DNA from: Utricularia gibba
Lineage: Eukaryota; Streptophyta; Magnoliopsida; Lamiales; Lentibulariaceae
DNA length: 64,000 nucleotides
Reading direction: 5' to 3'
Assembly: GCA_002189035.1 (NCBI GenBank)
Contig: CM007989.1
Coordinates: forward strand, 6,615,501-6,679,500
Shown: piece after piece, positions 25,302 to 64,000 of the stretch
Layout of the letters: each line of letters opens with the position of its first letter
How positions within the stretch are numbered: position 1 is the stretch's first letter
Made by a program: the position numbers and the translations under genes
The notes under the pieces: generated by a model
Databases searched by the model: none
What the model was told of the DNA's origin: nothing
What the model saw: only the letters and a program-made list of their open reading frames with translations

Positions 25302-26776
25302 ATGCCGCCCCTCAGAATGGACGCCGCCGCCTCCGCCGCCCCAAAACTGAAGAGGGCCTCCGGCATGGGCTCAACCTCAACGCAGTTTTCTCCTTCTGTC
25401 TCCTCGTTGTGTTCTTCATCGTCCCCGCCATGGTCCTCATGCGCACGCCCGCATCGGGGGCTGATCTTTGCTCCCACGTGGCTACCGAGGTGAAGCCCTG
25501 GTCCGGTGACCTCCGCGAAGCTGAATTCGCGTGGAACAAGCTTAAGTTCCCCGATTTTGGGGCGCCGCCGGTTTCGCTGCGGATAGCGGTTTTCTCGAGG
25601 AAGTGGCCAACGAGCTCGACGCCTGGAGGTATGGAGCGCCACGCGAAAACCCTTTATACGGCGCTGGCGGAGCGGGGGCACCGCGTCCATGTCTTCACTT
25701 CTCCGCCGTTCAATAAGTCGGCGGTCACGTCGGTGAATCCGGTCATCCACTGGTACCCTGGGGAACCGGATCGATGGCTGCCGAGTAAGGCGTGGGAGAT
25801 TTTTGAGGAAGAGCATCAATTGGGTTTATTCGACGTGATTCACTCGGAGAGCGTCGCCCTCCCCTTCTGGCTCGCGGAGGGGTTGAAGAATTTGGCCGTT
25901 TCCTGGCACGGCATCGCCCTCGAAAGCGTCCAATCGAGCATTTATCAGGATTTGGCTCGGAACTCCGGCGAACCCAGATCCGCCGATTTCTCGAAAAGCC
26001 TCGAGGATTCGATTCCCAAGGTTTTGAACGAGATCAGGTTCTTCGCCAAGTACGCCCACCATATCGCGATTACAGACAGCTGCGGCGAAATGTTGAGAGA
26101 CGTGTACCAAATCCCGTCCGAGAGAGTCCATGTGATTCTCAATGGCGTCAACGATGAAGATTTTGTATCCGATTCTGAGTCGGGGAAGAAGCTCAGATCC
26201 GACATCGGCATCCCCAAAAACGCCTCCCTAGTTCTGGGGATAGCCGGGAGACTAGTGAGGGACAAGGGCCACCCTCTGCTCTTCGAAGCCTTCTCCAAGT
26301 TCAGAATCAAACACCCCAACGTGTACCTAATCGTGGCTGGGTCTGGTCCCTGGGAGAACAGATACAAGGAGATCGGCTCCCAGGTCCTGGTTCTGGGCTC
26401 CATGAATCCGACGCAGCTACGCGCCTTTTACAACGCGATCGACATTTTCGTGAACCCCACTCTCCGGCCACAGGGGCTCGATCTAACTCTGATGGAGGCG
26501 ATGATGACCGGGAAGCCTGTGATGGCCTCACGGTTCCCAAGCATCAAGGGGAGCCTCATCGTGGACGATGAGTTCGGGTTCATGTTTTCCCCTAACGCCG
26601 ATTCCCTGTACAAAACCCTGGAAGCTGCCCTGGCGGAGGGTCCCCGCAGGTTAGCTCAGAGAGGGCAGGCCTGCAGGAGGTACGCCGGCTCCATGTTCAC
26701 CGCCAGGAAGATGGCTGTTGCCTATGAGAGATTGTTTCTCTGCATCAGTAATTCCAAGTACTGCTCCTTTCCATGA
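25302..26776 (+). CDS. GT4 glycosyltransferase, copy a; one-base frameshift near the start
   Basis: Single-exon retaining glycosyltransferase of CAZy family GT4, like the uncharacterised Arabidopsis proteins I recall as At1g75420/At1g19710; substrate unknown, probably Golgi type II membrane protein. The N-terminal tail (MPPLRMDAAASAAPKLKRAS) is in one frame from the ATG at 25302. The membrane helix (AVFSFCLLVVFFIVPAMVL) and the whole catalytic part are in another frame to the stop at 26774-26776. The switch falls at the G run 25367-25369, where one extra base would join them into about 491 residues, as in copy b. The donor-site loop PGGMERHAK is present, as are GIAGRLVRDKGHPLL and the GT4 E-x7-E region (LDLTLMEAMMTGKPVMAS). 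If the frameshift is real, the first ATG in the catalytic frame (25430) lies inside the helix. Confidence 0.85.
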
Positions 26777-27586
26777 TCACCTCCTCCATTGTGCATTTTT
26801 CCCTGCACTATTTTCCGACAAGGCACCCGAACCCGAACCCGTATTTGCCTTAACCGGTTTGAATGGGATCCCGGTTAGATTCTCCCCAAAACCATCCATC
26901 CCGCCGCATAAATAAATAATCTTTAGAAAATTACGAAAAATCGATCAAAAATTTCCAAACCCTAAAATCTAAGGATGTGTGTTGTTAAGATATTTTAATT
27001 TATTAGATATAATTAAATTATTTTTATTTTCTCTCTTTTTCTAATTTATCAAAAAAGGTTGTCAGTTCATTTCATCTAAAATAATTATTTTATTATAATA
27101 AATATAAAGCTAATTATTTAAAATTACAACCTAATTTTTTTATTATAAAAAATAATATACTTCAATTCATATACCAAACAGTACCTTCTCATACACGTTT
27201 CTCTCACACGTTTTAGGGCTCTCCTTTTGCACTCAATTTCCATTTTTTTTAGGGCTCTCCTTTGACCTAAGGTTTTTTGAGCTACGGTCTTCCATTATTT
27301 ATATATTGTTTTTTTAATATTTTATTTAGGTTGAAAAAATAATAAATTGATTGATAAAAAGGATAAAATAAAAATGATATTGAGAGGAAAAATAAGTTTA
27401 TGAGTAAAAATAGGTTTTTATTTCATAATGATTTAAATTAAATAATACATAATTTGTCATATTAAATAACACACTTATCACTTATGTTATTTACGAAACC
27501 ACCCCCATCTCTTAAACCAAAACCACGAATTTAGATCCTCATCCGTACACCCTTTCCAGAGATGGATCCGCTAACCTGCATGGATG
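26777..27586. other. Intergenic region between GT4-a and the LEA gene
   Basis: AT-rich from 26920 to 27480. A small direct repeat (AGGGCTCTCCTTT near 27214 and 27250) is visible. No gene is supported. Confidence 0.5.
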
Positions 27587-27638
27587 ACACGTGGATGACA
27601 TGAAGCTGAACACGTGTCGGTTAGCCACTATAAGAAAA
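27587..27638 (+). promoter_or_regulatory. Paired ABRE/G-box elements of the LEA gene
   Basis: ACACGTGG at 27587-27594 and ACACGTGT at 27610-27617 are two CACGTG-core ABA-response elements 23 bases apart. A weak TATA-like sequence (CTATAAG) is near 27628. Paired ABREs of this kind drive ABA- and drought-induced LEA genes, so inducible or seed expression is likely. The ATG is only about 50 bases further on, so the transcript leader would be very short unless another TATA is used. Confidence 0.6.
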
Positions 27639-27667
27639 CGCTGGAGTGTTTGCCACCCTGCCGGAAA

Positions 27668-28066
27668 ATGCATTCAGCCAAACAGAAAGCCAAGGACGCG
27701 GCGGCGGTCGCGGCGGAGCACGTCGAGATTGCCAAAGCCAAAGCCGAGGAGAAGGTCAGCATCTCTCTCTCTCTCTCTCTCTCTCTATTCCTTTTTATTA
27801 AGCTACGAAACCCTAACGTTTGGGCACTTGGGAATTTTTCGTAACAGGCGCAGAAAGCCGTGGCGCGGAGCAAGACCGATAAGGAGATAGCGGAAGAGAT
27901 GCGGAAGGCGAGAGAAGCCGAGGCGAAGATGAAGATGCACGATGCTAAAGCTAGGCACGCCGAAGAGAAACTCACCGGCAACCGCCACCACGTCACCGCG
28001 GCGCCGACTCATCCCGGCGCCACCGCCCCGCCTCAGGGCTCTACTGCGTCTGCCCCGTACAAGTAA
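27668..28066 (+). CDS. LEA_1-type late embryogenesis abundant protein (2 exons)
   Basis: Small hydrophilic protein of the LEA group PF03760, thought to protect membranes and proteins during drying. Exons 27668-27754 and 27848-28066 (phase 0) give 101 residues. The N-terminal half is an Ala/Lys/Glu-rich amphipathic helix (AKQKAKDAAAVAAEHVEI, KTDKEIAEEMRKAREAEAKM); the C-terminal tail is His/Pro/Thr-rich and flexible. The single intron at this place is typical of the family. The gene sits between two copies of a GT4 gene, so the GT4 duplication is not a simple adjacent tandem. Confidence 0.9.
27762..27786 (+). repeat. (CT)n microsatellite in the LEA intron
   Basis: A pure 25-base CT repeat begins eight bases inside the intron, next to the donor site. 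Repeat length is likely to vary between individuals. Confidence 0.9.
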
Positions 28067-28660
28067 ATGTGTCAAATGCACAAGACCGCTGTACAGCCGA
28101 TGCTGTGTTTGTGTGTGTGGTATATAATACGTATTTAAAATATTTCTTATATAAATAAAATATTTTACGTAATAAGCTAATATATATGTATATATATATA
28201 TAATTTTAATAGGTAATAAATTATATTAATTTTTCAAAGTCAACATGAGCGAGATTGGGTGACGGTTTTCTGTTATTTAAACAGTTGGCCATTACTATAA
28301 ACGTCTTTGGCTATAAATAGATAGACAGCTCCCATCTAGACATGCAAATTAATTCATATTTATTTGGAAACGTTAATGAAGCGAAGTCAACCCTGGCTGC
28401 CCACCGTCCGTTTCTCTCCCCCCAGGAATCTGGAAGATCGACGGCTGTAATCACCCCAAGGACCCTTACTGACTCGCGAGGGTAACTTTTACCTTTCACG
28501 AAATTGTCTTACAACTGTTGTTTAATACTGGGAAATTAATTATTTTTTATTAAGATGAAATTTATTTTTGAATTATCCTAATGTTGAAAATGGTATTTGT
28601 TTTATTATTTCTTTTTAGTTCATGCGTTTGCAGTAGAGAGTGCTGCTTCAGGTTGTGCAT
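28067..28660. other. Intergenic region before GT4-b
   Basis: AT-rich, with a short TA run near 28183-28202. No gene is supported. Confidence 0.5.
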
Positions 28661-30139
28661 ATGCAGCAGGAGCCGGAACTGCCAGAGGTGTTCCGGAACC
28701 CCATGCCGCCACTACGGTTAGGCGCCGCCGCAGCCAAGCTGAGAAGGCCTCCGACGTTGGGCCCTGATCACAAGTTTGCTTTCACCCTCGTTGGGCTCCT
28801 TCTTTTATCCGTGTCCATCGTCCTCCTCCTCCGATCTCCCCCCAGAGAATGCAACTGTCTCAGTTCCTCTCCGGGAGGAAGCCCGCGGTCCGGCGACCTC
28901 CGCCTCGTTGACTTCGCCTTGAATCGGCTCAATTTAACGGGATCAACGCCGCCGCCGGAGGCTCTGCGGATCGCTGTTTTTTCAAAAAATTGGCCGGTGT
29001 CGACGCTCCACACCGCCCTCGCTAGCCGCGGCCACTACGTCCACGTCTTCACGTCCCCTCCGATCAACCAAATCGCTAAAACAACAAAATCCCCCAATTT
29101 AATCATCCACTGGAACGACGGGGAGCCGGAAAAGTGGCATTACGATCAGGCGTGGGAGCAATTTCAAGAAGAGGACCGCCGCAAGAAATTTGACGTCATC
29201 CACTCCGACGGCGTGGCGCTCCCGTTCTGGATCGCGCAAGGGGTCCAAAACGTCGCCGTTTCGTGGCACGCGTTAGCCCTAGAAACCGTGCAATCGATTA
29301 TCTACCAGGATCTGGCCCTGAGATCCGACACGCCGCCGTCGCCGGAGTTCACGCGAGCGCTCGAGGAATCCATTCCTAAGGTCCTCGACGAGATCAAATT
29401 CTTCTCCAAGTACGCCAATCACATCGCCATGACGGACAGCTCCGGAGAAATCCTCAGAGATGTTTATCAGATCCCTTCTGAGCGAGTTCATGTCATCTAC
29501 AACGGCGTCGAAGACAAGGACTTCCGCAAGGACTCGTCACTGGGAAAAAAATTCAGGTCCCTTGTAGGCATCCCGACGAACGCCTCTCTCGTCTTGGGAA
29601 CAGCCGGCAAATTGGCAAGAGACAAAGGCCACCCATTGCTCTTCAAAGCCTTCTCCAAACTGAAGCTGAAGCACCCAGACGTGTACTTGATGGTGGCCGG
29701 CTCCGGTCCCTGGAAAAACAAGTACAGGCGCCTGGGTTCCCAAGTCGTCGTCCTGGAATCCCCGAAGCCAGATCAACTGCAAGCCTTCTACAACGCGATG
29801 GACGTGTTCGTGAATCCGACACTGAGACCGCAAGACCTGGATTCCATGATGATAGAGGCCATGATGACCGGGAAGCCCCTGGTAGCGTCGAGGTTCCCGA
29901 GCATCAAGAGGACCGTCGTCCCTGATGGTGAAATGGGGTTCCTGTTTGCTCCAAACGTGGAGTCTCTCCACAACGCTCTGGAGCTGATTGTCCGCGACGG
30001 TGCGCGGAGGCTGGAGCAGCGAGGCGCAGCCTGTGCCAGGTACGCACGCTCGGTGCTCACCGCCGCCAAGACGGTGCTTGCCTATGAAAGATTATTCTCC
30101 TGCATTGCCTATCCAACACGACGCTGTACATTCCCTTGA
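28661..30139 (+). CDS. GT4 glycosyltransferase, copy b; donor-loop deletion
   Basis: Paralogue of the gene at 25.3 kb, single exon, 492 residues from the ATG at 28661 (MQQEPELPEVF). Order: cytosolic tail with PMPPLRLGAAAAKLRR, membrane helix (FTLVGLLLLSVSIVLLL), stem, then the GT4 catalytic domain with GTAGKLARDKGHPLL, VAGSGPWKNKYRRLGSQ and a LDSMMIEAMMTGKPLVAS region. Where copy a reads KWPTSSTPGGMERHAKTLY, copy b reads NWPVSTLHTA. Eleven residues (33 bases, in frame) are missing, including the Gly-Gly-Met-Glu-Arg-His loop that contacts the nucleotide sugar in GT4 enzymes. The rest is intact and conserved, so the protein may be expressed but is probably altered or inactive as a transferase. 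Confidence 0.9.
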   Translation: MQQEPELPEVFRNPMPPLRLGAAAAKLRRPPTLGPDHKFAFTLVGLLLLSVSIVLLLRSPPRECNCLSSSPGGSPRSGDLRLVDFALNRLNLTGSTPPPEALRIAVFSKNWPVSTLHTALASRGHYVHVFTSPPINQIAKTTKSPNLIIHWNDGEPEKWHYDQAWEQFQEEDRRKKFDVIHSDGVALPFWIAQGVQNVAVSWHALALETVQSIIYQDLALRSDTPPSPEFTRALEESIPKVLDEIKFFSKYANHIAMTDSSGEILRDVYQIPSERVHVIYNGVEDKDFRKDSSLGKKFRSLVGIPTNASLVLGTAGKLARDKGHPLLFKAFSKLKLKHPDVYLMVAGSGPWKNKYRRLGSQVVVLESPKPDQLQAFYNAMDVFVNPTLRPQDLDSMMIEAMMTGKPLVASRFPSIKRTVVPDGEMGFLFAPNVESLHNALELIVRDGARRLEQRGAACARYARSVLTAAKTVLAYERLFSCIAYPTRRCTFP

Positions 30140-31865
30140 AGTTAAATTGAGAGGAGTCTGTTTTTTTACATTTCATTTTTACTTTTTTTTATTATTATTT
30201 TAATGATATTTTATTTTCATAACTTTTCTTTATTTTTATTAATATTTTCAAAGTTGTTTGTTTAAATTCCAATAATTTCGTGGGAAATTACCAAAATTAA
30301 TGCTTTCTTTGTACGAAATTGTTTATTTCAAATTGAAACCTTATAGTTTTTTTTTTATTTTTGATTAGAAACTTCTTGATGATCACACATCTTAAAATTA
30401 CCCTGGATTAAGCACACTTAATTTTGAAATTACTATCAAAGATCTTCAACCGTATTTGTGAAAAGGCCCCGTACAATTTTTACATAATAATTATATTTAA
30501 TCTCTTCCTCTACTCTATCCGTAATCCAATGGAATTTACCTAAGTTTGGTTCTGCCATCCTTCATTAGATGGAACCTTACATTTTGAATAATTCTTCAAT
30601 TTGTAACAAGGGTGTTTATGTAATTTTAATCCAAAATGTCAATTATAGCATGTATCACTAGTTTAAATTTTGGTCTGAAGTTTTGGATTTTTTTTGAAAT
30701 AGAATATTGTCAAAATAGACAAAATAATAATTCATTACAAGATATGGGATTTATTTTTCAATATTTTTGGATTTTATTTTTAAATTTTTAAAAGTAAAAT
30801 TAAAAGTATTATTTACTTTTGGTATCTATTTTTAGATATTTCATCTAAAAAATGATTTTTAAAGAACACCCACTTTCTACTTCAATACAAAAGTTTCCAT
30901 TTTTATTTTTACTTATAATTGCATTATCATCAATTTTCTACCGTTTAAAAAATGAAAATAAAATTAAATAAACTTGTGTGAATAATATAAATGGAAAAAA
31001 CTCATTACAGTAGATTTTCTGTAGTCTGATTAGCATGCAATAAAGAGATGTCATCGTCTGGGATGCAGATTTTTCTCTTTTGAAAATGTGACTGCAAAAG
31101 GAAGTCATTATCGGAGATGGCGACACTCCATTTAGGAACATCTCATCTTCTACTTGTGATGTTGGGAGTGATTGGAAGGGGATCCGATTGCGGCAATCTG
31201 ATACTGGGCGGGGTACATCTTACCAAAAATCCACTGAAAACTGTGAATCCATGCAGATTTTCAGATCCCGATGAATGAAATCTGATCTTTTTGTGTAACG
31301 ATGATTCTGTGTGATCCCGGTGACCCATCGTCTTCTACCTTAGCCATTCAATGCATAGCGCGTAAAATAATGAAATTATGTGTGAATCGGTTGGGCGGTA
31401 GGCGTGATGTCTTATGGCTATGGGTGCGGACAAAAAATGCACATGTGTCCATGTCGAATCCCTTTATTCAATTCCTGCTCAATGATAAACGAGTTCTCCG
31501 CGTCCACTACAGTTGTCTCTTGAGTTTTCATTGTTCTACTAAGGCGAGTGCATTTGTTTGAAAGCAGCTGAGCTTTCACGTTTCTGCACTTCCCTTTTGG
31601 TTAAAGACGGTCCCTTTGTGGACCTGGAGTCGAATTTTTGAACTGGGTTCTGGAATCTGTTAGCAAAGCTGCGAAAGGTGAGTTCTTGGTTATCCTTTTG
31701 TGGGGTTGTTTGCTTTGAATCGTTTGATATCCCCTACCTTTCAATGTTTGATTGATAGCAGATTGTCACTCCTACTTTTGAGATCCATCTCTGTAATTGA
31801 TGCCAGTTAATGCTCATTGATTTCTGTGTGTAAGGACTAATTGTTACATTTACGATTCAGGAAAT
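30140..31865. other. Intergenic region and 5' leader of the pectin acetylesterase
   Basis: AT-rich to about 31000. From 31560 the DNA looks like a leader: AAAG|GTGAGTTC near 31677 and CAG|GAAATATG at 31860 suggest a 5' UTR intron of about 180 bases just before the start codon. No other gene is supported. Confidence 0.45.
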
Positions 31866-33958
31866 ATGAAGGGAAGACTAGAAGCTTGCCTTCTGGTTTT
31901 GATGCTTTTTGTAGTGACAAGTGAGAGCGTTTTCGTTGGTATCACTTATGTTCAGAGTGCTGTAGCAAAAGGAGCAGGTGAAACACGCTGAGACTTCCAA
32001 AAACTTTGTTCAGTGATTGTATTTTCTGATCTCTGTTTTTTTTCCTTGTTTTCAGTTTGTTTGGATGGTAGCCCACCTGCATACCATTTGGATCCGGGCT
32101 CCGGAGCTGGAAGTAACAGTTGGATAGTCCATATAGAGGTTGCTTCTATCATCCCTTTGTTGACATCAGTTTTTGAACTGACTGTTAGAAGTTGAATTCA
32201 TGAGCTTTCACTTTGATCTTTTATTTCTGCTGCTCCTTGTTAAAATAGGGAGGCGGATGGTGCAACAATGTTACAACTTGCCTAGCCCGAAAAGGAACTC
32301 GGTTGGGATCCTCCAAGCAAATGGCTACACAGATTGCTTTTTCTGGGATTTTTAGCAAGCAGGCGCAGTTTAATCCTGGTATCATTCGCATCTCAGTGCC
32401 TTCATTTTCATTTTTTTGCTTGTGGTTCTCTAACTTGAGATTGTATGCCAGATTTCTATAACTGGAACAGGGTCAAGGTTAGATACTGCGATGGAGCATC
32501 TTTCACTGGCGATGTAGAAGCTGTGGATCCTGTAAGCGCTGCAATATTATGCCTTATGTTACAGCTGATGCCTGTGATTTGACATTCTGTCAAGAAAGAT
32601 CGATGACAATTTGTGATTGATGATCAGGCTACTAAACTGTACTATAGAGGGGCAAGGATCTTCAATGCTGTAATCGAGGACTTACTGGAGAAGGGAATGA
32701 AGAGCGCAGAAAATGTTCATTTCTTCCTTTTTCCTCTGCCGTTTCTTTGTCCAAGTGGCTTCAAGAGTGGGAAAAAATAAGAACTCGTTTTGTTTTTTTG
32801 TATAGGCTGTTCTCTCTGGATGCTCAGCTGGTGGATTGACATCGATTCTCCATTGTGATAAGTTCAGAGCTCTTCTTCCCTCGAGCACCAAAGTGAAGTG
32901 CTTTGCAGACGCTGGCTACTTCATCGATGCGTAAGCTTCATGGATCACTACACTTTGTAGAATCCTCTTGTGACATGATCCAGATCTTGTCTGTAAAAAA
33001 CTACAGGAAAGATGTCTCTGGAGCGCCACACATCAGCGATTTCTACAACGACGTCGTAACAACGCATGTAAGGAACCAAGTTTCTTGATGTGTCACGTTC
33101 TCCCACTTCTGATATCTTGTAATGCAGGGATCTGCTAAGAACTTGCCATCAGGGTGCACATCCAGCATGAAACCAGGCCTGGTAAGAGAACTTCGATTAA
33201 CTTCATTGTTTTGGCATTCCCCTGCAAACTTGTTTCCTGATGATTCATTCACCTGTTTGTGCAGTGCCTCTTTCCCCAAAATGTAGTGCAAGGAATCCAA
33301 ACACCCCTTTTCATTGTCAATGCTGCCTACGATTCTTGGCAGGTCAGGGAATGTTTCCATGCAATCCACATTTCGAACATGGCTGCATATATGTTAACAA
33401 ACCTGACTTGAGCCAGATTAAGAACATTCTGGCGCCCGGCGTGGCGGATCCCCATGGCCTCTGGCATGACTGCAAGACCGATATAACCAAGTGCTCTTCT
33501 TCTCAACTACAGACCATGCAAGGTAAAACAAGTTTTACAGAATATCTGTGACTTGCAGCAACATGTGATCTTGAGCTGGATGCTGCTTCTTCAGGCTTCA
33601 GACTGCAGTTTCTGAACGCACTCGGCGCATTAGGCTCCTCGAGTTCGAAAGGCTTTTTCATCAACTCCTGCTACGCACATTGCCAGACAGAAATGCAGGA
33701 AACCTGGTTGAGAAGCGACTCCCCCCTGCTGAATGACAAGGTACCATAGTTTCTGCTGGTTTTTGTGATCCTCAAGCCTTAATCTTTTGAATGTATCTGT
33801 GGTTTGAGCTTCTGGTTGTGTACTCTCAGAGGATCGCAGAAGCAGTTGGGGACTGGTTTTTCGAAAGAAGTTCATTTCAAGGGATCGATTGTGCGTACCC
33901 ATGTGACAGAACTTGCCACAACCGTATTTTTGATCCTCAGGATCACTCTCTTATGTAG
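31866..33958 (+). CDS. Pectin acetylesterase (CE13), 12 exons
   Basis: Secreted esterase that removes acetyl groups from cell-wall pectin. Exons: 31866-31977, 32056-32138, 32249-32378, 32452-32531, 32628-32714, 32806-32930, 33007-33067, 33128-33181, 33265-33342, 33417-33522, 33595-33740, 33830-33958; phases agree, 396 residues. Signal peptide about residues 1-20 ([17 protein letters not shown]). Oxyanion region HIEGGGWCNN, nucleophile elbow LSGCSAGGL with catalytic Ser, Asp in NAAYDSWQI, and His in [16 protein letters not shown]. Cysteines are placed as in the family. A candidate poly(A) signal follows at 34022. Confidence 0.95.
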
Positions 33959-34021
33959 AGATAAGTGAAGCACACAACAGGAACACACAGGCAGCAAGTG
34001 AATTGTTCATCAAGGCCCCAG

Positions 34022-34027
34022 AATAAA
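34022..34027 (+). promoter_or_regulatory. Poly(A) signal AATAAA after the pectin acetylesterase
   Basis: Canonical AATAAA 64 bases past the stop codon. Confidence 0.5.
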
Positions 34028-35047
34028 GCATATGATATGTCTGAACAAGGACATGTATGCTAGTGAATGTGATGTCTTTGCAGATGCAATGCAAGTCATA
34101 CGAAACATTGTAATACTTGTTATGTGGAACATTCCGACATATGTGTTTGTTGTATACATTTTCAACTGCTGATAAAGTTACTAGCCATCGTTATGAACCG
34201 GAATCCGGAATAGCATCAGAGCCACCGCCCGCCTGAACGGATTCTGGGCTTTCACGTACTGGGGTTCAGGCCCGACTTAAATGGTTGAAAGTTGAAACCC
34301 AACATCAATCGGGCTCGAGGGTTTGGTGGCCCTATCCGATTTTGGAAACCTCTCGCATCCACCGTTTCCGTCGCTTGAGGTGGGATCCTCGGAGTTCAAC
34401 GGCTCTGTGTTGTTGTTACCTCTGTCAAGGTAAGCAGAAGAAGACTACGCATGTTGTCAAAGTGTTTTTCTTGAGTGAGGTTTGATGCTGATTAATTTGA
34501 GAATTATATGGCGGAGTGTCCACACTAGGGTTGTGTTGGATGCATTCGCCATGTCATGATTCCTATGCCCATTGATCGTCCGCTTTCTCCCTTCCACCAC
34601 CTGTTTGTTGAAATGCTTTTTTTCTATGGCTGTTGAAATGTGGGCTTCGTTCTGTGATTGAAGATGATAACAATAGGACGCCTATGACTGTTTTCATCAC
34701 TGATTTGGAATGATGGATTCATTGTGTAATAGATTGGACATGTTTCTGGTCTTGGATTACAAGTATATGCCTGATAAAAGAAAGATTTAGAGGAATTACT
34801 ACCTGTTCTTGGTACTCATGCTTTGGATTCATTGATGGCTTTGAAAATGTAGAGAGTAGAGAGTTCTGGAACCAGGTCTTTGAAAGGCATGTTACAGTAG
34901 AGGAAACTATAGCTTTTACCATTTTCAAGGTTTTTTATCTCATAAAAAGGAAACTTGATGAGTTTGATGACCTTGTTTTGTCTCTACATAGCTATGTGTT
35001 AACCAGATAGTTTCACCCATCTGATGGGGCAGTTTTCAGTCACCTCA
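34028..35047 (+). other. Leader and 5' UTR intron of the small membrane-protein gene
   Basis: A GC-rich stretch at 34200-34430 ends in CTGTCAAG|GTAAGC, a good donor, and TTTTCAG at 35034-35040 is a good acceptor just before the next ATG. This fits a non-coding first exon and a ~600-base leader intron. No other ORF is convincing. Confidence 0.45.
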
Positions 35048-42870: not shown

Positions 42871-44285
42871 ATGAGGGAACACACTGACTCTGATTATGTT
42901 GAAATTGGGGAGGTTCCTTCTCCCAGGGTTAAGCATGGGCGAAAAGTCTCGGTTTTGCCGCTTGTGTTCCTAATATTTTATGAAGTATCTGGAGGACCAT
43001 TTGGTGTTGAGGATAGTGTGAAGGCAGCTGGGCCACTCCTTGCTCTTGCTGGTTTTTTGGTGTTCCCAATTATATGGAGTATTCCAGAGGCTTTAATAAC
43101 TGCAGAAATGGGAACCATGTTCCCAGAAAATGGTGGGTATGTGGTTTGGGTTTCATCTGCGTTGGGGCCATTTTGGGGGTTTCAGCAAGGGTGGATGAAA
43201 TGGCTTAGTGGTGTGATTGATAATGCTCTTTACCCTGTCCTGTTTCTTGACTACCTGAAATCAGGGGTTCCATCTTTGGGAGACGGTTATCCTAGGGTGG
43301 CCACTGTGTTGGTTTTGACATTTTTGTTGACATATATGAATTATAGGGGCTTAGAAATAGTTGGATGGGTTGCTGTTATTTTGGGAGTTTTCTCAATTCT
43401 GCCGTTTTTTGTTATGGGGTTCATTTCCATACCCAAACTAAAGCCTGAAAGATGGTTTGTCGTGGACATTCATGATGTTGATTGGAACTTGTATCTCAAC
43501 ACTCTCTTCTGGAATTTGAATTACTGGGATTCAGTGAGCACCCTTGCGGAGAAGTGGAGAATCCCAGGGGAACTTTGCCAAAATCTCTGTTTTATGCCCT
43601 GATTGTTGTTGTTCTGGGATACTTCATCCCTCTGCTTTCTGGCACTGGAGCTATTCCCCTGGACCGTGATCTGTGGACCGATGGCTACTTTTCCGATGTT
43701 GGAAGAATGATTGGTGGAGCATGGTTGACATGGTGGATACAAGCTGCTGCTGCCCTGTCCAACATGGGAATGTTCCTAGCAGAAATGAGCAGTGACTCAT
43801 TTCAGCTTCTTGGCATGGCCGAAAGAGGGATGCTTCCTGAGATGTTTGCTAGAAGATCCCGATACGGAACTCCGGTGGCCGGGATCATATTCTCAGCATC
43901 AGGAGTACTTCTTCTTTCTTGGCTGAGCTTCCAAGAGATCGTTGCTGCTGAGAACTTCCTCTACTGCTTTGGCATGATACTAGAGTTCATAGCATTTGTG
44001 CATCTCAGGATCTCAGCCCCATCCGCCCCTCGCCCCTACCGGATCCCCATCGGAACCGTCGGTACGATTCTAATGTGCATCCCTCCCACCATACTCATCT
44101 GTGTTGTCTTAGCATTCTCCTCCCTCAAAGTCATGGCCGTGAGCCTCGTCGCCGTCGCCATCGGCTTCGCACTGCACCCTTGTCTCAGACAGTGTGAGAA
44201 GAAGAGATGGATGCGGTTTTCTTCCAATTCCCATCTTCCAGATATTCAATCCTCGAGGTATGAGAATGAACATGTGGTGTGGTGA
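42871..44285 (+). CDS. Polyamine-type amino-acid permease (PUT family) with one-base frameshift
   Basis: Twelve-helix APC-family transporter of the plant PUT/LAT group (polyamine and paraquat uptake). The coding part is one exon. Reading from the ATG at 42871 shows family motifs ([51 protein letters not shown]) up to YWDSVSTLA near 43546. There the frame shifts: the conserved continuation ([19 protein letters not shown]...[17 protein letters not shown]...GTPVAGI) is in another frame to the stop at 44283-44285. The break lies at GCGGAG, 43547-43551, where one more G gives the family sequence GEVENP and a 471-residue protein. As written the first frame ends about 15 residues later. Everything else is intact and unmutated, so an assembly error or a very recent lesion is likely. 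Confidence 0.88.
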
Positions 44286-49301: not shown

Positions 49302-49360
<59 letters not shown>

Positions 49361-51974: not shown

Positions 51975-54900
51975 CTACTCACCAGAGTAGTCTGGGTTGG
52001 CTTCTATGTCCTGCAATCTCAAAGTCACAGCTCTCTTGTGAGCATCCAGACCCTCAATCTGCGCCATGGTGGCTACATATGGCCCAAGGTTCCTCAGCCC
52101 TTCTTCTGTCAGCGACTGAACAGTGATGTACTTCATGAATGAGTCCAATGAGACGCCACTGTACATGCGGGCATAGCCGTAAGTCGGAAGAACATGGTTT
52201 GTTCCACTTGCATAATCTCCAACACTCTCCGGTGTCCACTTGCCCATGAACACAGATCCTGAATCAGAGCACAGCATCAAACCAGTTTTATGGTCGGGCA
52301 GTTGCATCATTTTACGGTTACCAACTTGATAGCAACAAGTAGGGAGAGTGGTTTCACAAAGAAAGATTGTTTCTGGAATCTGGGATTTACCTGCATTTTC
52401 AACAAAGCCTTCCCACTTCTCAGCATCCTTAACATTGAGTATCAAATGCTCAGGTGCGTACATGTTGGAAAAAGAAAGAGCCTGTGAATGACATAGAAAC
52501 AAAAGGAATCATGTACATCTCAGTGGTTTATAGCCTGTGGAAAACTCAATTCAGGAAGCATCAAGCACATTTCTTCGAGTGTCAAAAAATGCAGCAAAAC
52601 TTCAAAAAACGAAATCTATCATAATAAACTTGCATATTTAAGTTCCATAATCACTTGATGAAATATGCTACTACGTAAACATATCCTAGATCCACTTTCC
52701 AAATATCAACAGAATTCCCGGACAAAACAGTTCATCATGGAAACTACTATGCAATATTCAGTTAGCCTTATAAGGTAGGTGAATTAGTTCAGCGCCCAAA
52801 TGCGGAAAGGTCAGAAAGTTGAATATATTTCAAACCTCATTCATGTCTTGCGCATGAAGTATAAAGCTATGGCTTAGTGCTTTTGAAGCAAAGGTTCCCC
52901 GTGGAAGAGTACTGCACTGTTTGTGGATTTCGGTCTCAATTGCAGATACGTCAACATCTCCAACAACAATGAGAACAACTTGGCTATCCGGACCATGCTC
53001 AGCCTGAGAACAAATGACGAAAAGATGAAAAGTATATGGCCAGTTCAAATGATGCCACACGGATGTGGCTTTGCTGTAATTTTTAGTGTAGTCAGTTCAG
53101 AGGTTTATACTGGTTGTCATTTTGTTTTTTTTTTTTTTTGGGCAGCTGACAACAATACATGAAGAATAGTGAAGAAACATAACTAGTGGAATAAGCACGT
53201 AGATACCTGAGAAAGCAAATCAGCTGCCACATGAACAGGGCTTGCATACTTATCTGCAATAACAAGGACTTCTGATGGTCCAGCGGGCATATCTATTGAA
53301 ATCAATGCTTCACTGTTCTATTGAAATCATGTAGAAAGTTAATAATTTGAAGTACCTGTAGAATCACAATAATATGTGAACCAAATAAATGTCTACAATC
53401 TGAAGTACCTGTAGAATCATTTTTGCAGCTGTAACATACTGGTTTCCAGGCCCATATATCTTCTCAACCTGCGTCACATAATGGGATTGTCAATGATCAA
53501 AGATGGAGCATGGAGTTGATTAGACCAAGACTAAAACATAACAGTGCTGATTTGAGAAGCATACAAAAACTGATACACTAGAAACACCTACAGACCTTGT
53601 GTAGCAGTTAAAATCAACCTTCCAAAGGTTGGATAGGGATCTTTTCCATTTGTGGACAACTTTAAGCGCAGAAACATTAACAAAAGTTACCTTTGGGCAT
53701 GATTCCGTTCCCCAGGCCATAGCAGCAATTGCCTGAAAAGTTTTCCCACTGTTTGAGAAAAAAAAAATTAAGATATGAACAAAATAAAATCAAACCTGTG
53801 CACCCCCAGCTTTCAGTATATGGGTGACACCAGATTTCTTTGCACAGTAAAGAACCTCCTACAAATAAAGGCTTGTAAGACACACATAGAAACCCTACCA
53901 AAAATTATTTCAAAGTTTAAAAAACTACCTTACAAATGTTTCCATCTTGCGTAGGAGGAGTTGCAAGTACAACTGTTTTGCATCCAGCAATCTGAGCAGG
54001 CTGATTTTAACATCCATATAGGTGATTTCAATTATTGTTTGACACAAAAAAAAAAAAAAATTTCTAGGTTAAGGCATCATACAACTGAAAGCATTAAAGC
54101 AGTTGACGGCAAAACAGCAGTTCCACCAGGTACATATAGCCCAACTGATGAGATGCTCCGTGCGACCCTCTTGCATCTCACACCCTGAAGAACATACAGT
54201 AATATAATAAGACATATCTAAAAATAAACTTTACGGGATAAACATCCATTACATACCTTCATATTCTCGATAATTTTCTCAACTGGCCTTTGCTCAGCAT
54301 GGAAAGCAAAAATGTTATCATACGCCACATCAAAGGCCTTGCGCACAGCTGGATCAAGCTAATTATAAAATGAGCACATACAAATAATTATGTAATTCAT
54401 AAAAGATAAAAGAATATTTCTCATATCATAGCACAGGAAAAACATAGATGAAAGATGCGAAAACATGGTAGTATAAGAAATTTACCAGAGGATCTGGAAG
54501 GTCATTGATATACTCCAAGACGTTATCCAGTTCAACTTTATCGAACTGCAATGTATAGCTGTATAGCATAAACATATCTTTAGCATACAATACGTTATTA
54601 AAACCTTTATAAAACGAGAGATGGGGCAAAAAAACTGTTCAGAATTGATCCACGATGTTGCATTGGGTGAATAGTATTACCCAACTCAGTGCACAAGATG
54701 ATGCTAAGTTTGGCCATCATACACGGTTAAAAAATGGGTAGTGTAGAGATAAGAACGCCTCACATTGAAATCAAAATACTGGCAGTTGAATAGATATACG
54801 AAAGACTGAATTTCAATAAACAGAAACTATTCATCCTTTCGCTAACCAGGAGGGTTGGCTTCAGGATTTTAAGATTATAACTCTTGAAGGTTATTGACTC

Positions 54901-55226
54901 TTGCATGCATGTTTTCGTTTCATGACCAAATATCAACATAAACAACGTAAGGAAGTCCACTCATAAACAAAAAAGAGTGCACGCGATGCATACTCCTTAA
55001 CTGCTGCATCACCTCTGCTCCTCACATCATCAACAATAGGATGGACCTGCACATACACGGTGCTGTGATGAAGTCGAAATAAAAAGAAGGGAAATTTTAC
55101 AAGTCAAGGTAATTGCCCAGGCCTAAGGCTCACCACATTGAAAATGGACGAAAAATCAATTCGAGGCCGGACTAGAAGGCTAGCAACCTCAGTCCTTGAA
55201 AGATCCACCAACTTATAGGATTTCAT
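51975..55226 (-). CDS. HISN8: Histidinol dehydrogenase (last two steps of histidine synthesis)
   Basis: Plastid enzyme oxidising L-histidinol to L-histidine with NAD. Exons on the minus strand: 55226-55134, 55046-54981, 54545-54486, 54358-54257, 54184-54083, 54000-53929, 53858-53796, 53732-53691, 53468-53409, 53317-53207, 53003-52836, 52481-52391, 52258-51975; 437 residues from [10 protein letters not shown]. Conserved: [20 protein letters not shown]-like [53 protein letters not shown] and [19 protein letters not shown]. The region before MKSYK should carry a plastid transit peptide; in-frame residues QTCS precede it, but I could not place the first exon (perhaps near ATG 55840). The donor after KEYASR is CGT|GCACTC, not GT, so that intron is abnormal or misplaced. 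Confidence 0.93.
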
Positions 55227-56294
55227 AGAGCAAGTTTGAATGAAAAAACTTGATCCTAAAAATGTGACAGATGAGATAGATATAGAGTTGATAACTGAGA
55301 TAAAAAGAAAATAAATAGCAGAAGAAAATTATTAGAATAGAACTTAACACACAGCTTAAGGCTCCACGCTTTTACGTCAGTGAAAATAAAAAAAGTTAAA
55401 CATCGCATTACATCACAAACACAATAGACGAATATGGATACGGTATGAGTATCTGAGAATCCTAAACACATCCGAAAAACAAATTTACGCATGTAAATTA
55501 GATGTTTGGATGAAAGGCCCTGCATTTCACACCGTCCATGTCAAATTCTACAGCCGCATCCAAAGAAAGGCATAAAAACTAAGCGGGGACTCCTAAAATT
55601 GTGCCAAATAAGATTTGAAAGTCGTAATGAAGAGAGTCATACCGGAAAGTAACATAATACCGGCCGGAGAAGTGCAAAAACGGGCTGTTAGGCCACCAAC
55701 GGCGTAAGGCTACGGGAAATCCAAACGAGAAAAATTCTTGCAATCTTGGCCCGAGACACCAAAGCTGGAACACTAATCAGGCAGCGTTTGAGCGAGTGCT
55801 ACGAGAGACTGGAAAATGAAGAGAGTCTAACGGGCGGCATCGCCGTAGCACGCCAGGCCACACCGGTTGAGTCCGCGGGCCAAAAGATACACTAAAGCCC
55901 GTATGTCCGGCCGGGAGCATAAATAACAGACCCGATCATCATTCCTGGATACAATGCCCCAATGACTCCCCCTCCCCGGGCACACTGTGAAGCCCAAGTC
56001 GAGATCCCCTCCCTATTGGGTCCTTCGTTTTTAGGGGTCAGGCTTGGCATTCATGTCGGGCTCTTTCTGTGCCGAGGATCACTGTCCAAATCCCGGGCAC
56101 GCCAGGCCTCAAAGGCACTGATTTATGAGATCACTGAGCTGTACGGTGAACAGATCACCGGCGGGGACGTGCCGCGGCTATGGGCTGAGCCGGCCCCTGC
56201 CCAACTCCACAGATTTGGATCCATGACAGATTATTTAATATTTCAAAATTTGGATGCTGCTGTTTGCGTGGCTGCAAGCGAGTTTCCGGTGGCA
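55227..56294. promoter_or_regulatory. Divergent upstream region of histidinol dehydrogenase and PsbP-domain gene
   Basis: GC-rich from about 55600 to 56294. It should contain the missing first exon of histidinol dehydrogenase (candidate ATG 55840-55838, minus strand) and the leader of the PsbP-domain gene. Both encode probable plastid proteins, so shared promoter elements are plausible but unseen. Confidence 0.4.
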
Positions 56295-58189
56295 ATGATC
56301 ATATCCAAATTCTTGCTGCCGCTGACAGCCTTGCCGCCGCGGGCGATGGCGGAACCCGTGAAGCCGGCATCTTTGCCGCTCGCCAATGATGCTCAAAACT
56401 CTTTTCTCCAAAGGAGAAACTTCATTTTCGAAACATCGATCGCCTCCACATTTGTTGCTTTATTTTCAGCAACTGCCTCAACTGAAGGAGCGGCGCCGTC
56501 AGAGAATACTTTTCTTTCTGGCATTGCAAATACCAAGTCTTGGTTCCTCTTCTATGGCGATGGGTTCGCCATTCGGGTGCCTCCTGACTTTCAGGATATC
56601 ATGGAACCTGAGGTACATCACTCAAGCGCTATTCATCTTGCGCTCTCTTTGATTCTAGCTTTTTCTGGATTCCGGAGGCATTCTTAATCTTTCAGACACC
56701 GAAGTTATGTAATAAAAATGATCAACTTGCAAAACCTGAAACTTATATTAAAATCAAATTGCTAATTTCTATCATCAATGTTTTCCAACTTTTCTAGAGC
56801 ATATAGGTGGAGGGTATGGTGTCCCATTTTGATTTCTTCAGGTTGTGACGCAGTGTTTTTGTAGGACTTCAATTCTGGGTTATCACTTTATGGAGACAAA
56901 GCTAAGCCGAAGACATATGCTGCACGATTTGCATCTTCAGATGGGTAAAACATTATAATCTTAAGTATATCAATGAAATGATTTCATTAGACTTATGCTT
57001 TTAAAGTGATGTTAATAAACTGAAAGAAGCAGTATATTACAGTGAATTTATAATTATGAAAGCAGATCTCAGAAATTTATATTCACCACTCTAGAAATGG
57101 TTCTGATAAAAAAAATGATGGTCCTAATTCTAAACGGTGGTAACGCTGAGATGTCTGAGCAAAATTACATTGTGGGTATTCATTGAAGTACAATTCTAGC
57201 CGAGTCGACTGAACTAGAAACCAAGGTCTACTTGTGTTCCCCCAATCCTAATCTAGCCTCATAAAATTGACTAAAAGTTCTTTGAAGCGTTTATCAGGTT
57301 AATGTTTACATTTTGGATACGCTAGTTGCAAGAAGTGTTAATTTCCTGTTTTCTGACCTGGGAAGGTTTGGTTGTTCGGTTGCTATGATTTGCAGATCTG
57401 AGTTCCTTAGTGTAGTGATTCGGCCATCTAATCAACTTAAGATCACATTTTTAGAGGTCTGTGGCTGCACAAAAAGAATTCATTCATCAATTTACGAGTG
57501 AATATGGGTTAAAATCAAGGCAAGACGAGTTTCTTTTTCTTTTTTCTTTTTCAGGCTAAAGACATTGCTGATCTTGGATCATTGAGGGAGGCTGCACGTA
57601 TATTCGTTCCAGGTAATTAGTTATGGGAAAGATAAGTTTCTCTTCCTTTCATGTGAGTGGTTTATCTGGTGTTCATTTAGGTGGAGCGACTTTGTACACT
57701 GCCCGCACTATCAAAATTAAGGAAGACAATGGCTACAGGTATCCTGTGCTTACTGCTGTGCTTTCACAGTTGAGTTGATCATACACTACGCCAATCACTC
57801 CTGATTGGCTAGCAATTCACTTGAGCAACCATATCTTGATGGTGCTGACTGCTGAGTTCCGTTTTTCATTTTAACTCAAACGAATGATAATCATGTGGAT
57901 CGAAAAATTGCTGATTTCGTTTAAATTCAATGACAACTGTTTCAGGAATTACTATTATTATGAATTCGGCAGAGATGAAGAGCATGCTGCGCTTGTTGCT
58001 GCCGTAAATAGTGGCAAGGTTGCTGTGTTTATTTTCCGATCTCTTGATATACCCGGACTCCACTGAGTGTCTAATCTCTTGTGCCTGTTTTTATAGGCCG
58101 TTGTTGTTGGAGCTACTGCACCCCAGAAAAAGTGGGAGGAGGATGGTGTTAAGCTTCGGTCTGCTGCCATCTCCCTTACACTTCTCTAG
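56295..58189 (+). CDS. PsbP-domain protein, probable thylakoid lumen
   Basis: Member of the PsbP/Mog1/DUF1795 fold family, whose plant members are mostly lumenal helpers of photosystem assembly. Exons: 56295-56612, 56865-56944, 57396-57456, 57555-57612, 57681-57738, 57946-58018, 58097-58189; phases agree, 246 residues. The N-terminus looks like a bipartite presequence: a Ser/Pro-rich stretch, then a twin Arg before a hydrophobic segment (LQRRNFIFETSIASTFVALF), typical of the Tat route. The domain follows (FYGDGFAIRVPPDFQDI, KPKTYAARFASSDG, FEAAR-like REAARIFVPGGATLYTAR). The frame stays open upstream; an earlier ATG at 56223 is possible. Which PPD/PPL member it is, I cannot say. Confidence 0.85.
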
Positions 58190-58399
58190 TCTCTTCCTAA
58201 GAAATACTTATAATTGCATTCCATTTACGTGAGAATATGCTTGCGTTGTAGCTGTGAAATGCTTCCAGTGTCCAGGAACATCCCATTTTTGTAGACTTGT
58301 AGAAACAAAACCCAAGATTGTAAGTGATCATACAACAGTTGAAATGCCTTCAAGGAAGTCTCAATAATCTATTCTTGTATGGCAAAAAGTTCTCTGGTT
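58190..58399. other. Convergent 210-base gap (PsbP gene / APC8)
   Basis: Both 3' UTRs must lie here or overlap, so antisense transcript overlap is likely. Confidence 0.5.
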
Positions 58400-60634
58400 T
58401 CATCCATCCAAATGTTGAGGGAAATGCTCCACATCTCTTGCAGATCTTATCCCTCGAAGAAGACTCTTTGCTGTCTCCTTTTCCTGGTGCAGGAAAAAGT
58501 GAGAACACAACATCACAACACATCAGCATAAGTTTACAGAGCCATGGAAGAACTTACAGAACCAGTGTAGTCGAGGAGACGCGTACAATAAACCTCAGCT
58601 TCTTCGAATCTTTTGTGGGTTTTACAGTGCTGAGCTAAGAACATGAGAGCTTCAACCATGTTTGGTCCTTCCCTATCCTCCGAATCCATCCTTTCCAAAT
58701 CCTTCTTGTAATAGAAAGCTGCCTCTTCAGTTCGACCAAGTTCGGCATGAAGCTTTGCAAGTCTGTGCAGTGCTATGGCTTCTTTATCATCACAACTAGC
58801 TGCTCGTCTATAGCACTTGATGGCTTCCTCAAGCATATGCAGCTGTTCAGCTTCATAACACTGAGCCATGGCAATCCACAAACGAGAATCACTTGGTTGC
58901 AGGAATACTGACTTCTTGAAGTAGTGAAGAGCATATAGTGGCATTCCCATCATTTCATAAGCCTGGCCTAATCCATACCATGCTCTATAATCACATTGAT
59001 GAATGTCGACTGCACGACGATACGCATAAACTGCAGCAGACATATTCTTCATCTCCACATACTCATGGCCCATCAGGGTCCAAGCTGACAAATAGTTCTT
59101 GTTCAATTTCAAGGCTCGACTGAAGTACATAACAGATTTTTCATGGTTCCCTTTCAAGCTGTAGTAGTTACCAATAATGCAGCATGTTTCCGGCCTATAT
59201 TTATCCGTTAGAAACACACGGTGTGCAAGATAACTCAGTGCAGAGAAACATTCCTTGGCATAGAGCACATTGGAGTACATATCCATATCATCAATTCTGT
59301 AGGGATCATTCTTCAGTAGTTCTTCAAACATACCTTCCACTTGCTCAAACTCCCTGAGGTTGTACTGGGCCTTCGCAACCTGTGCCAGTATGTAGTTGCT
59401 ATTGGAAAAAGTCCCCATCAGATATTCATACTTTGTCAAAGCCTCGTTGTGCATCCGAAGCTCTTGGTAAGCACTGGCAAGGAAGAAATCCTTCATCCAG
59501 TGATTGTTGAGATTAAGCATCTTTAAAGACTCTGCTGTTGTGCACAGCGTTTGTAGCTCAGACCAAGCACTCCAGTTCCAAGGGTAGCTGTTCACAGATT
59601 CGACAAGGACATTCCTTGCTAGATTCTCATTGCCCTTCTCCTTGAGAACAAGGCCATACATGTAAAGACCAAATGGGTCGATCCAACCATTACTGCGAAG
59701 TTTCGACAGTTCTCTCTCAAGGGAAGGCAGTTCTTTATTCATGGTATAGCATTTCCCCAAAGGCCCCCCCAGTTCTACTGTCTCTTCTTCTTTTCGCTTT
59801 TCCCCGGCCTTGAGCAGATGGAAATCAAATTTTAAGCAGATGAGCTTAAGAGAAAAATCACTAGATATAGCAAACATGGTGCTCAAAACAGTCCGCAGTT
59901 TCTCAAAATGGCTACTTGCAAAAAAGATCGAAGTGAGAACACTGCATAAACAAATAAGCTCCGAACTTTGAAAGTGTTTCATGCTCGTTTTGATACCGTT
60001 AGTAATGCATTTAAATAACCCACAGCAATCACTTATTCTCCATAATCAAAGAAAGGACAAGCACAAGGTGCAATTGAGAAAAGTGTTAGAAAACACCAAC
60101 CAAATAGAGAGAATAGCAGCGCAAGAACACAGCTTTATCGTTGGTTTGATCTCGGAGCACATGGGCAGCCCTTCTGTACTCTCTGCAATCAAAATATGAC
60201 TTGGCCAATAAATACAAATCGCCACTTATCACGTCGCAGTCTAATTCCTCAACCTCCGCTTGCGGCGGTGTGGCTACGAACGGCAGGGTGGCAGAAGGTG
60301 TGAACGATGAGTCCGCAACAGTGACGGCGCGGTTGCGGAGGCGAACCCCAGAGCTCCCCCGCTGGAATCGAGACTGCAAAGGGGTTTGCTTCATGGAATC
60401 TTGCTCTATTCCAATCAACTGCTCCGCTGCCCTTCAAAAACCCATAAAAGATTCGATTTCACGACGATAAAAAACCGGCATTTTGAAACGAATAGATGAA
60501 GTTCGCAAGAAATAAGAACGTGGGGTTTTGAAACTGATAAAGGTTTACCATTTTGCCGCGGAGTTCAGGCCGCGGTCTCTCAGCTGCCGGACGGCGGAAC
60601 GCAGCTCGTTTCTGCAAGCTTCCTTCGTCGCCAT
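58400..60634 (-). CDS. APC8: Anaphase-promoting complex subunit 8 (APC8/CDC23), 4 exons
   Basis: TPR scaffold subunit of the APC/C ubiquitin ligase, which drives mitotic exit by marking cyclins and securin. Exons on the minus strand: 60634-60549, 60431-60101, 59808-58558, 58483-58400; phases agree, 583 residues. N-terminal MATKEACRNELRSAVRQL, then at least seven TPR units (for example AWTLMGHEYVEMKNMSAAV, RAWYGLGQAYEMMGMPLYAL, RLWIAMAQCYEAEQLHML). The C-terminus SLLRGIRSARDVEHFP matches the family. Splicing is required: a stop would follow the third exon otherwise. Start, length and sequence all agree with Arabidopsis APC8 as I remember it. Confidence 0.96.
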
Positions 60635-62049
60635 TACCCTTACCTATTCTTAACCAACAGACGGCGCCCCCAACACGAATCAATTGAATCCAAATCCTCA
60701 CTCACTTCACTTCAGTACTCCAATTCCAAGTTGCGATAGGTATATACCAACACTCTCACCGTCTCCAACAACCACCGTGCCGAGAAATATAATTTTCTCA
60801 TTTCAAAGGGAGAATTTGAATTTGATGCAGAGGCAATGTAGATGCCGAACGCAGAACATATCTTTTTATATATTTTATTTTTTAACATTATTTAGATAAA
60901 TATAAGTTAAAATTAAAAATATATTCGATATTTAAACTTATACATACGAATTTAATAATTATTTTAAAAGATTAACTCCAAACAATTATTAATGATCTCC
61001 AAATTTTTATATATTTTATTATTTCATTTTCAAATCTTAAAGTATTATTTATCTTAAGATTATCTTTACCAAGTTTCGGAAATGCTAACATGTTATTTTT
61101 GGAAATTGAATTATTGAATTTCGTTTATCAAATTCATTTTATGTTTATATTCATTTTCGAAAATTATAATATTAAAATAATTTAAAATTACCATATTTTT
61201 AATCATTTTCAGAAGTAAATTGTCTTTCCTTATTTCCGTTTCATGAAAAAAGAAAAAAAAAAACACATTTACCAATTTTCAAAAATCTTTATTCTATTTT
61301 CGAAAACCCCATATCAACATTTCCAAAAATAAGTAAAAATACTCTAATAAGTTGATGGCATTTAAATTCCCTGTGTAAACTTCCTATTAACTTTGGGTGT
61401 GTGTGGAGAGTTGTTTCAAAATAAGCATTTGCTTGCAGAGTCTCATTTCCAATTATGGGCTATGAAATTACCTTCTGACCCCAACATATTCCATTTCTTC
61501 ACTTTCTAAGGATGTGCATATATTTTTATATCATGTTTCTTCTTCTTGACAAATGTTTCCAATTGGGTGTATTTTGCCTAACACACAAGTATAAGTACAT
61601 TATCAAATGTACATTTCTAATAAAGTGACCAATACATTATTGATAATTACATATATTTTTTTTAGATGGATGAAGGATGAGGAAATATAAAACAGCTCTT
61701 CAGAATTAGAAAAATGACAAAAAAACGACATACAATGCTGGTCAGAATTAGAATTAAGGCAAATATCAAATACGTAGGGTGAGCTAAATAAGCCAGGTTT
61801 CATGAATACTTGTGCCATGCAATGCTGGTCAGTTGCGGTTGCGGCGGTTCTGTAATGGTGAGATTGGAACTGTATAACTAACCAAAATTGCACAGTACAG
61901 CATCTTTTTGCACCACATCAGAATAAAGGGAACAAAATGCAATATTTTCAGTTGAAAACTACATTTCACAAGCGACAGAAATCGTGTTCGTGAGATTAAA
62001 AGGGATGGAACAAAAAAAAACCTGGAATTTTAGTGGAGTTTCAGTATTT
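60635..62049. other. Intergenic region between APC8 and RPN9
   Basis: The first 200 bases are APC8 promoter; 60850-61700 is AT-rich without a gene. The RPN9 3' UTR probably covers the last 150-300 bases before 62050. Confidence 0.5.
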
Positions 62050-64000
62050 TTATGGTGCAGCAACCAAATCAGGTGTCTCGGCTTCAACGGAAAGCAAAGC
62101 GGTGTGCACTTTGCCGACCCAGTTATTGAGACGATCACGCAAGGGCTTGACCTGAGGGATTCCTAAAACTCGTGGCTGCATCCATGATACATAAACAGTT
62201 CCCTCTACTTGGTCGATGATCCCTTCTATGAGATGCACCTGGAGATGGTTCATTGAGAAATTAAATTGTAACATAACTCCAGATAACACAGGCAAGCATT
62301 GAAATATGAATTTCAGGGGGGGGGGGCGAAGGATGTGCTCAAGGTTGTGTGAATTTGGAGGGCTCGAATTAATGGCATGCACATCAAACGACCATGTGGA
62401 ACCGAACAATTAGGAACTGAATAGATGCGGGACTTACTGATAAACTCTTCATAAGAAGATACTCCACATTCTCCACAGTAAGTCTTGTCTGTTCAGCAAT
62501 GACTTGCAACGGTATAGTCCTCTCTTCAGATGGTCGGCTGGAAATGTTAAGTAGTGTACCGGGATTAAATAAATACGGAAGGCGATCTGTTTTTTTTTTT
62601 TAAATAAGGGTTGCAATTACCATCAATCACCTGAATATGATCTCCATCAAACAAAGTATGTTGATTTTCTCCAGAAGCCTTTTCTCATTCTGGACTAAAG
62701 CTGGTTGGGAGTTTAGAGCAGCTCCATGCACACGACATAGCTCCTGATAACGTGCCAGGTCACCCGAATTGGATGCTTCTAGAAGATAGTACAGCCATTC
62801 AATTTTCGTTCCAAGGAGACTTTTTATCTGTATGGAAGACCAAAAAAGGAACCATGGAACTTGAGCTGGGACATCTAAGCGATACATACAACAGAGTCAC
62901 ATTAGAGATAGTGTGATAACTCATGCTTACAATTGGATGGGCAAGAAGTTCACCGAAATTGTAGATATTGTCCCCAACAATGCAGAAAGTGATAAATCAA
63001 ATGCCAAGTCCTAGGTGAGAACTTTAGTCAATACTTTGACAATACATTCAAAACAAGATAATGTAAACCAGGAGTAAAGAACTTGAATAAAGATGCTTAG
63101 AAATCATAACTTTCACCATTCACATACAAATCAACTAAAAAATAAATGATTTTATCCAATCAAAAGCATGTTTAAGGATAATATACCAGCTTAAATGGTT
63201 CTGAAAGTGACTCCACTGACGTGTAAGCTAGATAGAGCAGAGCACTTCGGTAGAACTCCGAAAATTCCTGAAGGGATTTATGATGTTGTGATGAAACCCA
63301 ATAGTAGCTGGCGTACACAGTAGGATCAATGTCAGTCATGCTATCAAGTGTACTTTTTCCTTCCAGGAGAAGATTCTTGCAATCTTTTTTATCTCCTTGC
63401 TCAAGCTTGAATAACGCAATTTGCATCTTAGCATAAAGTATTGGCTCCTCTATGCGTGCTTCTCTGGTAATCCGAAGCTTCTGAATTACTCCTTCAAGAT
63501 ATTCTATCGCTGCTTCTTTGTCTGAGTAGTGCCGTGAAACTATGACGGCAAAATGTGCAAGCTTGAGAAGATTGATCTTTGTCTCAAAATCAGAGATGAA
63601 ATTGTGGTAAAGCTGAATTAAGGCATCCCCAGCCTGAAACAAAACATTACAGATATTAGAAAAAAAGTGACAAAATTGAACCTTTAGAAAAAGGAAACAC
63701 GAACAACACGCAATGACAATGCAAATAAGTTTGAATAAGAAAAACTTCATAACAAAAGTCAATGCACTCGAGACATTGGAAATCACAGAGTCATCATCAC
63801 GAAGCATGACATTAAAAAATAATAACAACATGGAACAAAAAACATAATTCCAGGTACTGTGGAAGATCCAGAAGGAAGATCCAGAACCTGAAACACAGCA
63901 AGCGCAACGAATTGTTCGAGTTTCAGCGTCAGTTGGTGCCAGAGCTTCCTCTGATACAGATCTGAAAGCGTGTTGTACCATTCTGAGAGCTCCGGATGCG
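62050..64000 (-). CDS. RPN9: 26S proteasome subunit RPN9 (PSMD13), partial; one-base frameshift
   Basis: PCI-domain lid subunit of the proteasome regulatory particle. Exons on the minus strand: 64000-63888 (starts mid-gene at HPELSEWYNTL), 63633-63187, 63010-62931, 62827-62631, 62537-62438, 62238-62050. The start of the gene is beyond the window. The PCI region includes LLEKINILCLMEIIF, LTVENVEYLLMKSLS and HLIEGIIDQVEGTVYVSWMQ; it ends AETPDLVAAP. Exon 63010-62931 is 80 bases but should be 81: reading breaks after LSLSALLG, and the family continuation (NIYNFGELLAHPI) is in the next frame. The missing base is in the C run 62972-62975 (a G run on the gene strand). Everything else is intact. Confidence 0.93.

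Follow-up and report, generated by a model that had tools for sequence, protein, structure and literature searches.

Three frame-broken genes in a 64-kb window of the Utricularia gibba genome: very likely consensus errors at G/C runs of a long-read assembly

Introduction

Three genes within one short stretch of the Utricularia gibba genome lose their reading frame through a single missing base, which raises the question whether the plant has lost the genes or the assembly has lost the bases. The stretch, called the window below, comprises 64,000 bp of contig C1 (6,615,501-6,679,500) in an assembly of 100.09 Mb in 516 contigs. The genes encode a glycosyltransferase of family 4 (GT4-a), an amino-acid-permease-type transporter, and RPN9, a non-ATPase subunit of the 26S proteasome. 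A U. gibba assembly was made with the hierarchical genome assembly process (HGAP) from PacBio data at 88x (PMC5793159), and the sequence analysed here is very probably this HGAP/Quiver PacBio assembly. A preliminary description of the window had attributed the three breaks to systematic sequencing error. The comparisons presented below uphold that claim: the breaks are very likely consensus errors of an assembly built from long reads only, and the genes intact in the plant. Deletion-only lesions bound to G/C runs recur throughout the assembly, copies of one and the same locus disagree with each other, and the rate of loss in a satellite rises with the length of the run.

Three genes with one lesion each

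The genes and their frame breaks are as follows (window coordinates).

25302 to 26776, forward strand: GT4-a, glycosyltransferase family 4 gene; PF13439 and PF00534 on a downstream frame of 455 amino acids, three-frame translation, and paralogs
25355 to 25390, forward strand: interval of the GT4-a frame break; candidate run GGG at 25367-25369
42871 to 44285, forward strand: transporter of the AA_permease_2 type in two frames; PF13520 and alignment to the intact paralog L017
43546 to 43549, forward strand: transporter frame break, one base short at GCGG (CTT GC GGA GAA), where the conserved TL-GEVENP segment switches frame
62050 to 63999, reverse strand: RPN9 (PSMD13-like); PF22037 (PSD13_N), chain 8amz_O, and yeast and human RPN9/PSMD13
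62972 to 62975, reverse strand: RPN9 frame break at a G run (CCCC on the forward strand), identical in a paralog on contig C412

As had been described before, all three frame changes are present, and each gene has one frame change, one missing base and no other lesion. GT4-a, which has paralogs in the window (28640-30139) and on contig C409, is open from the ATG at 25302 (MPPLRMDAAAS...), undergoes a single -1 frame change near the N-terminus, likely at the GGG, and resumes the conserved frame one base short (LNAVFSFCLL...); the remainder is open up to the stop at 26776. In the transporter, positions 4-189 of the PF13520 profile lie in the first frame and positions 213-401 in the second. An intact paralog on contig C4 has an open frame of 479 amino acids, and 332 of 437 residues are identical; frameshift-aware alignment of the two over these 437 residues gave exactly one -1 break and zero stops. 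The 5' end of RPN9 lies at or past the window edge. Its break falls inside LSALL/DNIYNFGELL, a segment without interruption in the solved plant protein (8amz_O) and in the yeast and human proteins, and all exons after the break are open. An RPN9 intron also contains a run of 11 Gs (62316-62326) that has no counterpart in the C412 paralog; its printed size is probably unreliable.

The same lesion in genes elsewhere

The GRAS, HSP70 and UGT families, which are mostly intronless or have long exons, were surveyed by a genome-wide search yielding 76.3 kb of coding sequence, and were read by frameshift-aware protein-to-DNA alignment. Genes with multiple lesions or stops, which are probably true pseudogenes, were left out by judgement of alignment quality, blind to sequence context. 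In the otherwise intact genes, 18 clean frame breaks were found (nine in GRAS, six in HSP70 and three in UGT genes), all of which are one-base losses (sign test p = 8e-6), as are the three in the window. A break zone was defined as 8 bases, lengthened to the ends of its runs, and was compared with random zones in the same genes. A G/C run of at least 3 bases was present in 14 of the 18 zones, against 3.6 expected (permutation p <= 5e-5), while A/T runs, tested at these zones in the same way, were not enriched. At the survey rate of one break per 4.2 kb of coding sequence, 2.4 breaks would be expected in the verified coding sequence of the window (roughly 10 kb). Three were observed, so that the window is an ordinary part of the assembly and not an exception. 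The surveyed genes are mostly mid-contig, and their rate is therefore a better estimate than those obtained from redundant contigs and satellite repeats below.

It is very unlikely that the three genes are real pseudogenes, lost recently and independently by single-base deletions. Pseudogenes probably do exist in this genome, for the gene families hold degenerate members with multiple lesions or stops (GRAS L031 and L032), and loss of the transporter would be tolerable as intact paralogs are present. However, where pseudogenes would show several types of lesion and relaxed selection, each of the three genes has one lesion and zero stops, and the dN/dS ratio (nonsynonymous over synonymous substitution) of RPN9 downstream of its break is about 0.1. 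RPN9 is a proteasome subunit, broken in both of its copies. The survey breaks reach essential genes such as HSC70, and include those in near-invariant HSC70 genes on contigs C451 and C496 and in an HSP70 gene on C255, and one EF-1alpha copy on C1 has one- and two-base losses in its coding sequence relative to near-identical copies. A deletion-only, G/C-run-bound spectrum is also unlike that of pseudogenes.

The near-identical EF-1alpha copies lie in both orientations within some 11 kb (C1:2,665,423-2,675,757; L006-L008). A split of GRAS genes at profile position ~138 was considered as a conserved intron and rejected for L036, L037 and L040, in which the two frames abut and one base is missing in a C run.

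Redundant copies of one locus

Loci that are present on more than one contig (C422/C416/C414 and C241/C304, ~25 kb) allow the assembly to be compared with itself. One GRAS locus is found on three contigs: it is intact on C422, has one deletion at the start of C416, and has several at the end of C414. The encoded proteins are otherwise identical, and the copies differ in their one-base losses. Over the redundant contigs, run length was discordant at 9 of 116 G/C runs of at least 4 bases and at 6 of 425 A/T runs (p = 0.001), and losses at G/C runs of two and three bases also occur. The ratio of gaps to substitutions was 26:25, against 8:47 in a partly diverged pair (p = 7e-5). The latter pair, C316/C412, had been a candidate for redundancy but was rejected as substitution-rich and in part truly diverged; it was kept as a contrast only.

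Two side observations concern the way in which the contigs were assembled. Between C422 (L064, 8778-8782) and C416 (L065), five bases read AACAC in one and its complement, GTGTT, in the other, possibly because the loop of an inverted repeat was flipped between two assemblies of one locus. Contigs C1, C2, C409, C505 and C507 have sizes that are exact multiples of 500 (8,500,000; 6,192,500; 2,492,500; 3,452,500 and 642,500), which suggests that contigs were cut where one window of a windowed consensus caller met the next.

A satellite repeat as a ruler for the error

A genome-wide search for the string at the RPN9 break uncovered a tandem repeat of ~628 bp, the units of which carry TTGGGGGACAA. 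The repeat fills several small contigs: C99 (300-9100, L106), C92, C106, C133 and C435. In 13 aligned units on C99, deletions at G/C runs of one to five bases numbered 7/2106, 11/468, 13/260, 5/26 and 3/13, which amounts to losses of 0.3, 2.4, 5, 19 and 23 %. The corresponding numbers for A/T runs are 5/1781, 1/546, 0/182, 3/104 and 0/26; the rise of the deletion rate with run length is thus clear for G/C runs and weak for A/T runs. In total, 49 deletions and 5 insertions were counted, and no insertions at G/C runs were seen in these units. The deletions are spread over 38 columns, mostly as singletons, and behave as errors would, while the substitutions are confined to 11 columns, the common ones being shared among units as real repeat variants are.

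The mechanism that we infer from the literature, from general knowledge and from the identity of the assembly, as we do the instrument, is one in which repeated incorporation of one nucleotide would produce successive signals that merge, by which the consensus would lose one base. In this assembly such losses are far more frequent at runs of G or C than at runs of A or T. In the G-run spectrum, length 5 is slightly depressed (ratio 0.188, with 0.238 on either side), which is a weak test of bulk undercalling. Genome-wide depletion of TTGGGGGACAA was dropped as a test, since the matches with five Gs (188) and with four Gs (353) are both padded by the satellite.

The shared RPN9 break and the certainty of single sites

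Several points weigh against a reading of all three breaks as errors. The RPN9 paralog on C412 (~84 % identity over the best-aligned stretch) has the same short run and the same break. A generic run-length error acting at the satellite rate gives such a shared break a chance of only about 1 in 5. With the break common to both copies, a hotspot set by sequence context must therefore be assumed, and a small opening is left for a real event shared by the two. The base lost from GT4-a could not be placed, its relatives being too divergent at the N-terminus. The runs as read are short, with three bases in GT4-a (GGG), four in RPN9 (CCCC) and two in the transporter (GG), for which the earlier label of homopolymer is generous. 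Being statistical, the error model gives no guarantee for any single site. All tests are internal to one assembly. Finally, the redundant sequence and the satellites come from small contigs or from the ends of contigs, the most poorly polished parts of an assembly, and the rates derived from them are upper guides that may not hold in the middle of a contig.

The transporter and GT4-a sites lend themselves most readily to a mixed explanation, with systematic miscalling in the assembly but a genuine mutation at one of the three breaks, most probably one of these two. This is improbable, though it keeps a small share of the likelihood. The short run and the unplaced base speak for it, but losses at G/C runs of two and three bases are common in the satellite and also occur between redundant contigs, and both genes are otherwise perfectly open.

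For RPN9, the alternative is that the break is genuine, arose before the duplication, and is overcome through programmed -1 frameshifting or transcriptional slippage at GGGG. Both paralogs share the identical short run, and both are under purifying selection on either side of the break, with dN/dS values of 0.044/0.43 upstream and 0.033/0.35 downstream. The full-length protein has therefore been produced over most of the period after the duplication. Yet at the change point the zero frame reads GCA TTG TTG GGG ACA, in which no slippery heptamer X XXY YYZ was found by inspection, and a run of four Gs is short for slippage. No discontinuity is seen at this point in the plant, yeast and human proteins. 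Within a single satellite array, adjacent units differ in whether the same 11-base string has five Gs or four: of 15 occurrences of the motif TTGGGGGACAA, 3 were read with four. As the string fails in about one in five cases there, a double failure in the two RPN9 copies is unremarkable. The same difference separates redundant contigs, AGGATAGGGGGACAAAG on C422 standing against four Gs on C414, in the GGGGGACAA string that is expected at RPN9. Shared breaks are moreover not special to RPN9, since GRAS paralogs likewise share break sites at C runs, e.g., GGNCCCCC, while intact paralogs have interrupted runs, e.g., GGCCCTCCC. A miscall hotspot thus explains the shared break better than programmed frameshifting does, and the RPN9 lesion is taken as a double miscall, with a minimal residue of probability left for either form of bypass. 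That the plant makes this proteasome subunit only by way of frameshifting or transcript slippage at GGGG is, by the same token, extremely unlikely. Consensus error at all three sites remains the preferred reading, with the qualification that the breaks are not three independent accidents: the identical break in the RPN9 paralog points to a hotspot of context.

Implications and comparison with known systems

Many genes in this assembly will look broken although they are intact. Were the rate of the sample to apply throughout the genome, about one quarter of the genes with a coding sequence of 1.2 kb would carry a false frame break, and claims of gene loss, pseudogenes or domain loss that are made from the assembly without support from reads or transcripts would have to be doubted. 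From the loss rates per run length, a prior can be set on whether a given break deserves trust, and sequence that an assembly contains repeatedly, in redundant contigs or tandem arrays, can reveal its error model without recourse to reads. An N-terminally truncated DCL3 from this genome, considered as a possible further case, was confirmed by 5' rapid amplification of cDNA ends (PMC8333044) and is not attributed to miscalls; a genome-wide search gave only three Dicer_dimer matches in the assembly. At such a density of errors, a miscall may nevertheless lie in the genomic sequence upstream of DCL3.

The artefact is of a kind that has already been published: ordinary as such, it is of practical importance for inferring gene loss from this assembly. 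A P6-C4 HGAP assembly of Streptomyces albus SM254 that had been polished with Quiver to a quality value above 50 still held 205 indels, nearly all of them in G or C homopolymers (PMC4832174), and an assembly of Enterococcus faecium ATCC 700221 retained 561 single-base deletions (PMC4888979). These HGAP/Quiver PacBio assemblies resemble that of U. gibba in their residual G/C-homopolymer deletions, and their errors were removable by short-read polishing. The density in U. gibba, about one frame break per 4.2 kb of coding sequence, far exceeds that of S. albus SM254 (205 indels in 7.2 Mb), and runs as short as 2-3 bases are affected, unlike in that case. In raw PacBio assemblies of Plasmodium falciparum, about 25,000 indels were found against 1,800 substitutions (PMC5964635). 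There, too, indels far outnumber substitutions, lie mostly in homopolymers and create false frameshifts in genes; however, the P. falciparum homopolymer errors occur mainly in tracts of more than 14 bp in an AT-rich genome, whereas those of U. gibba are found in short G/C runs.
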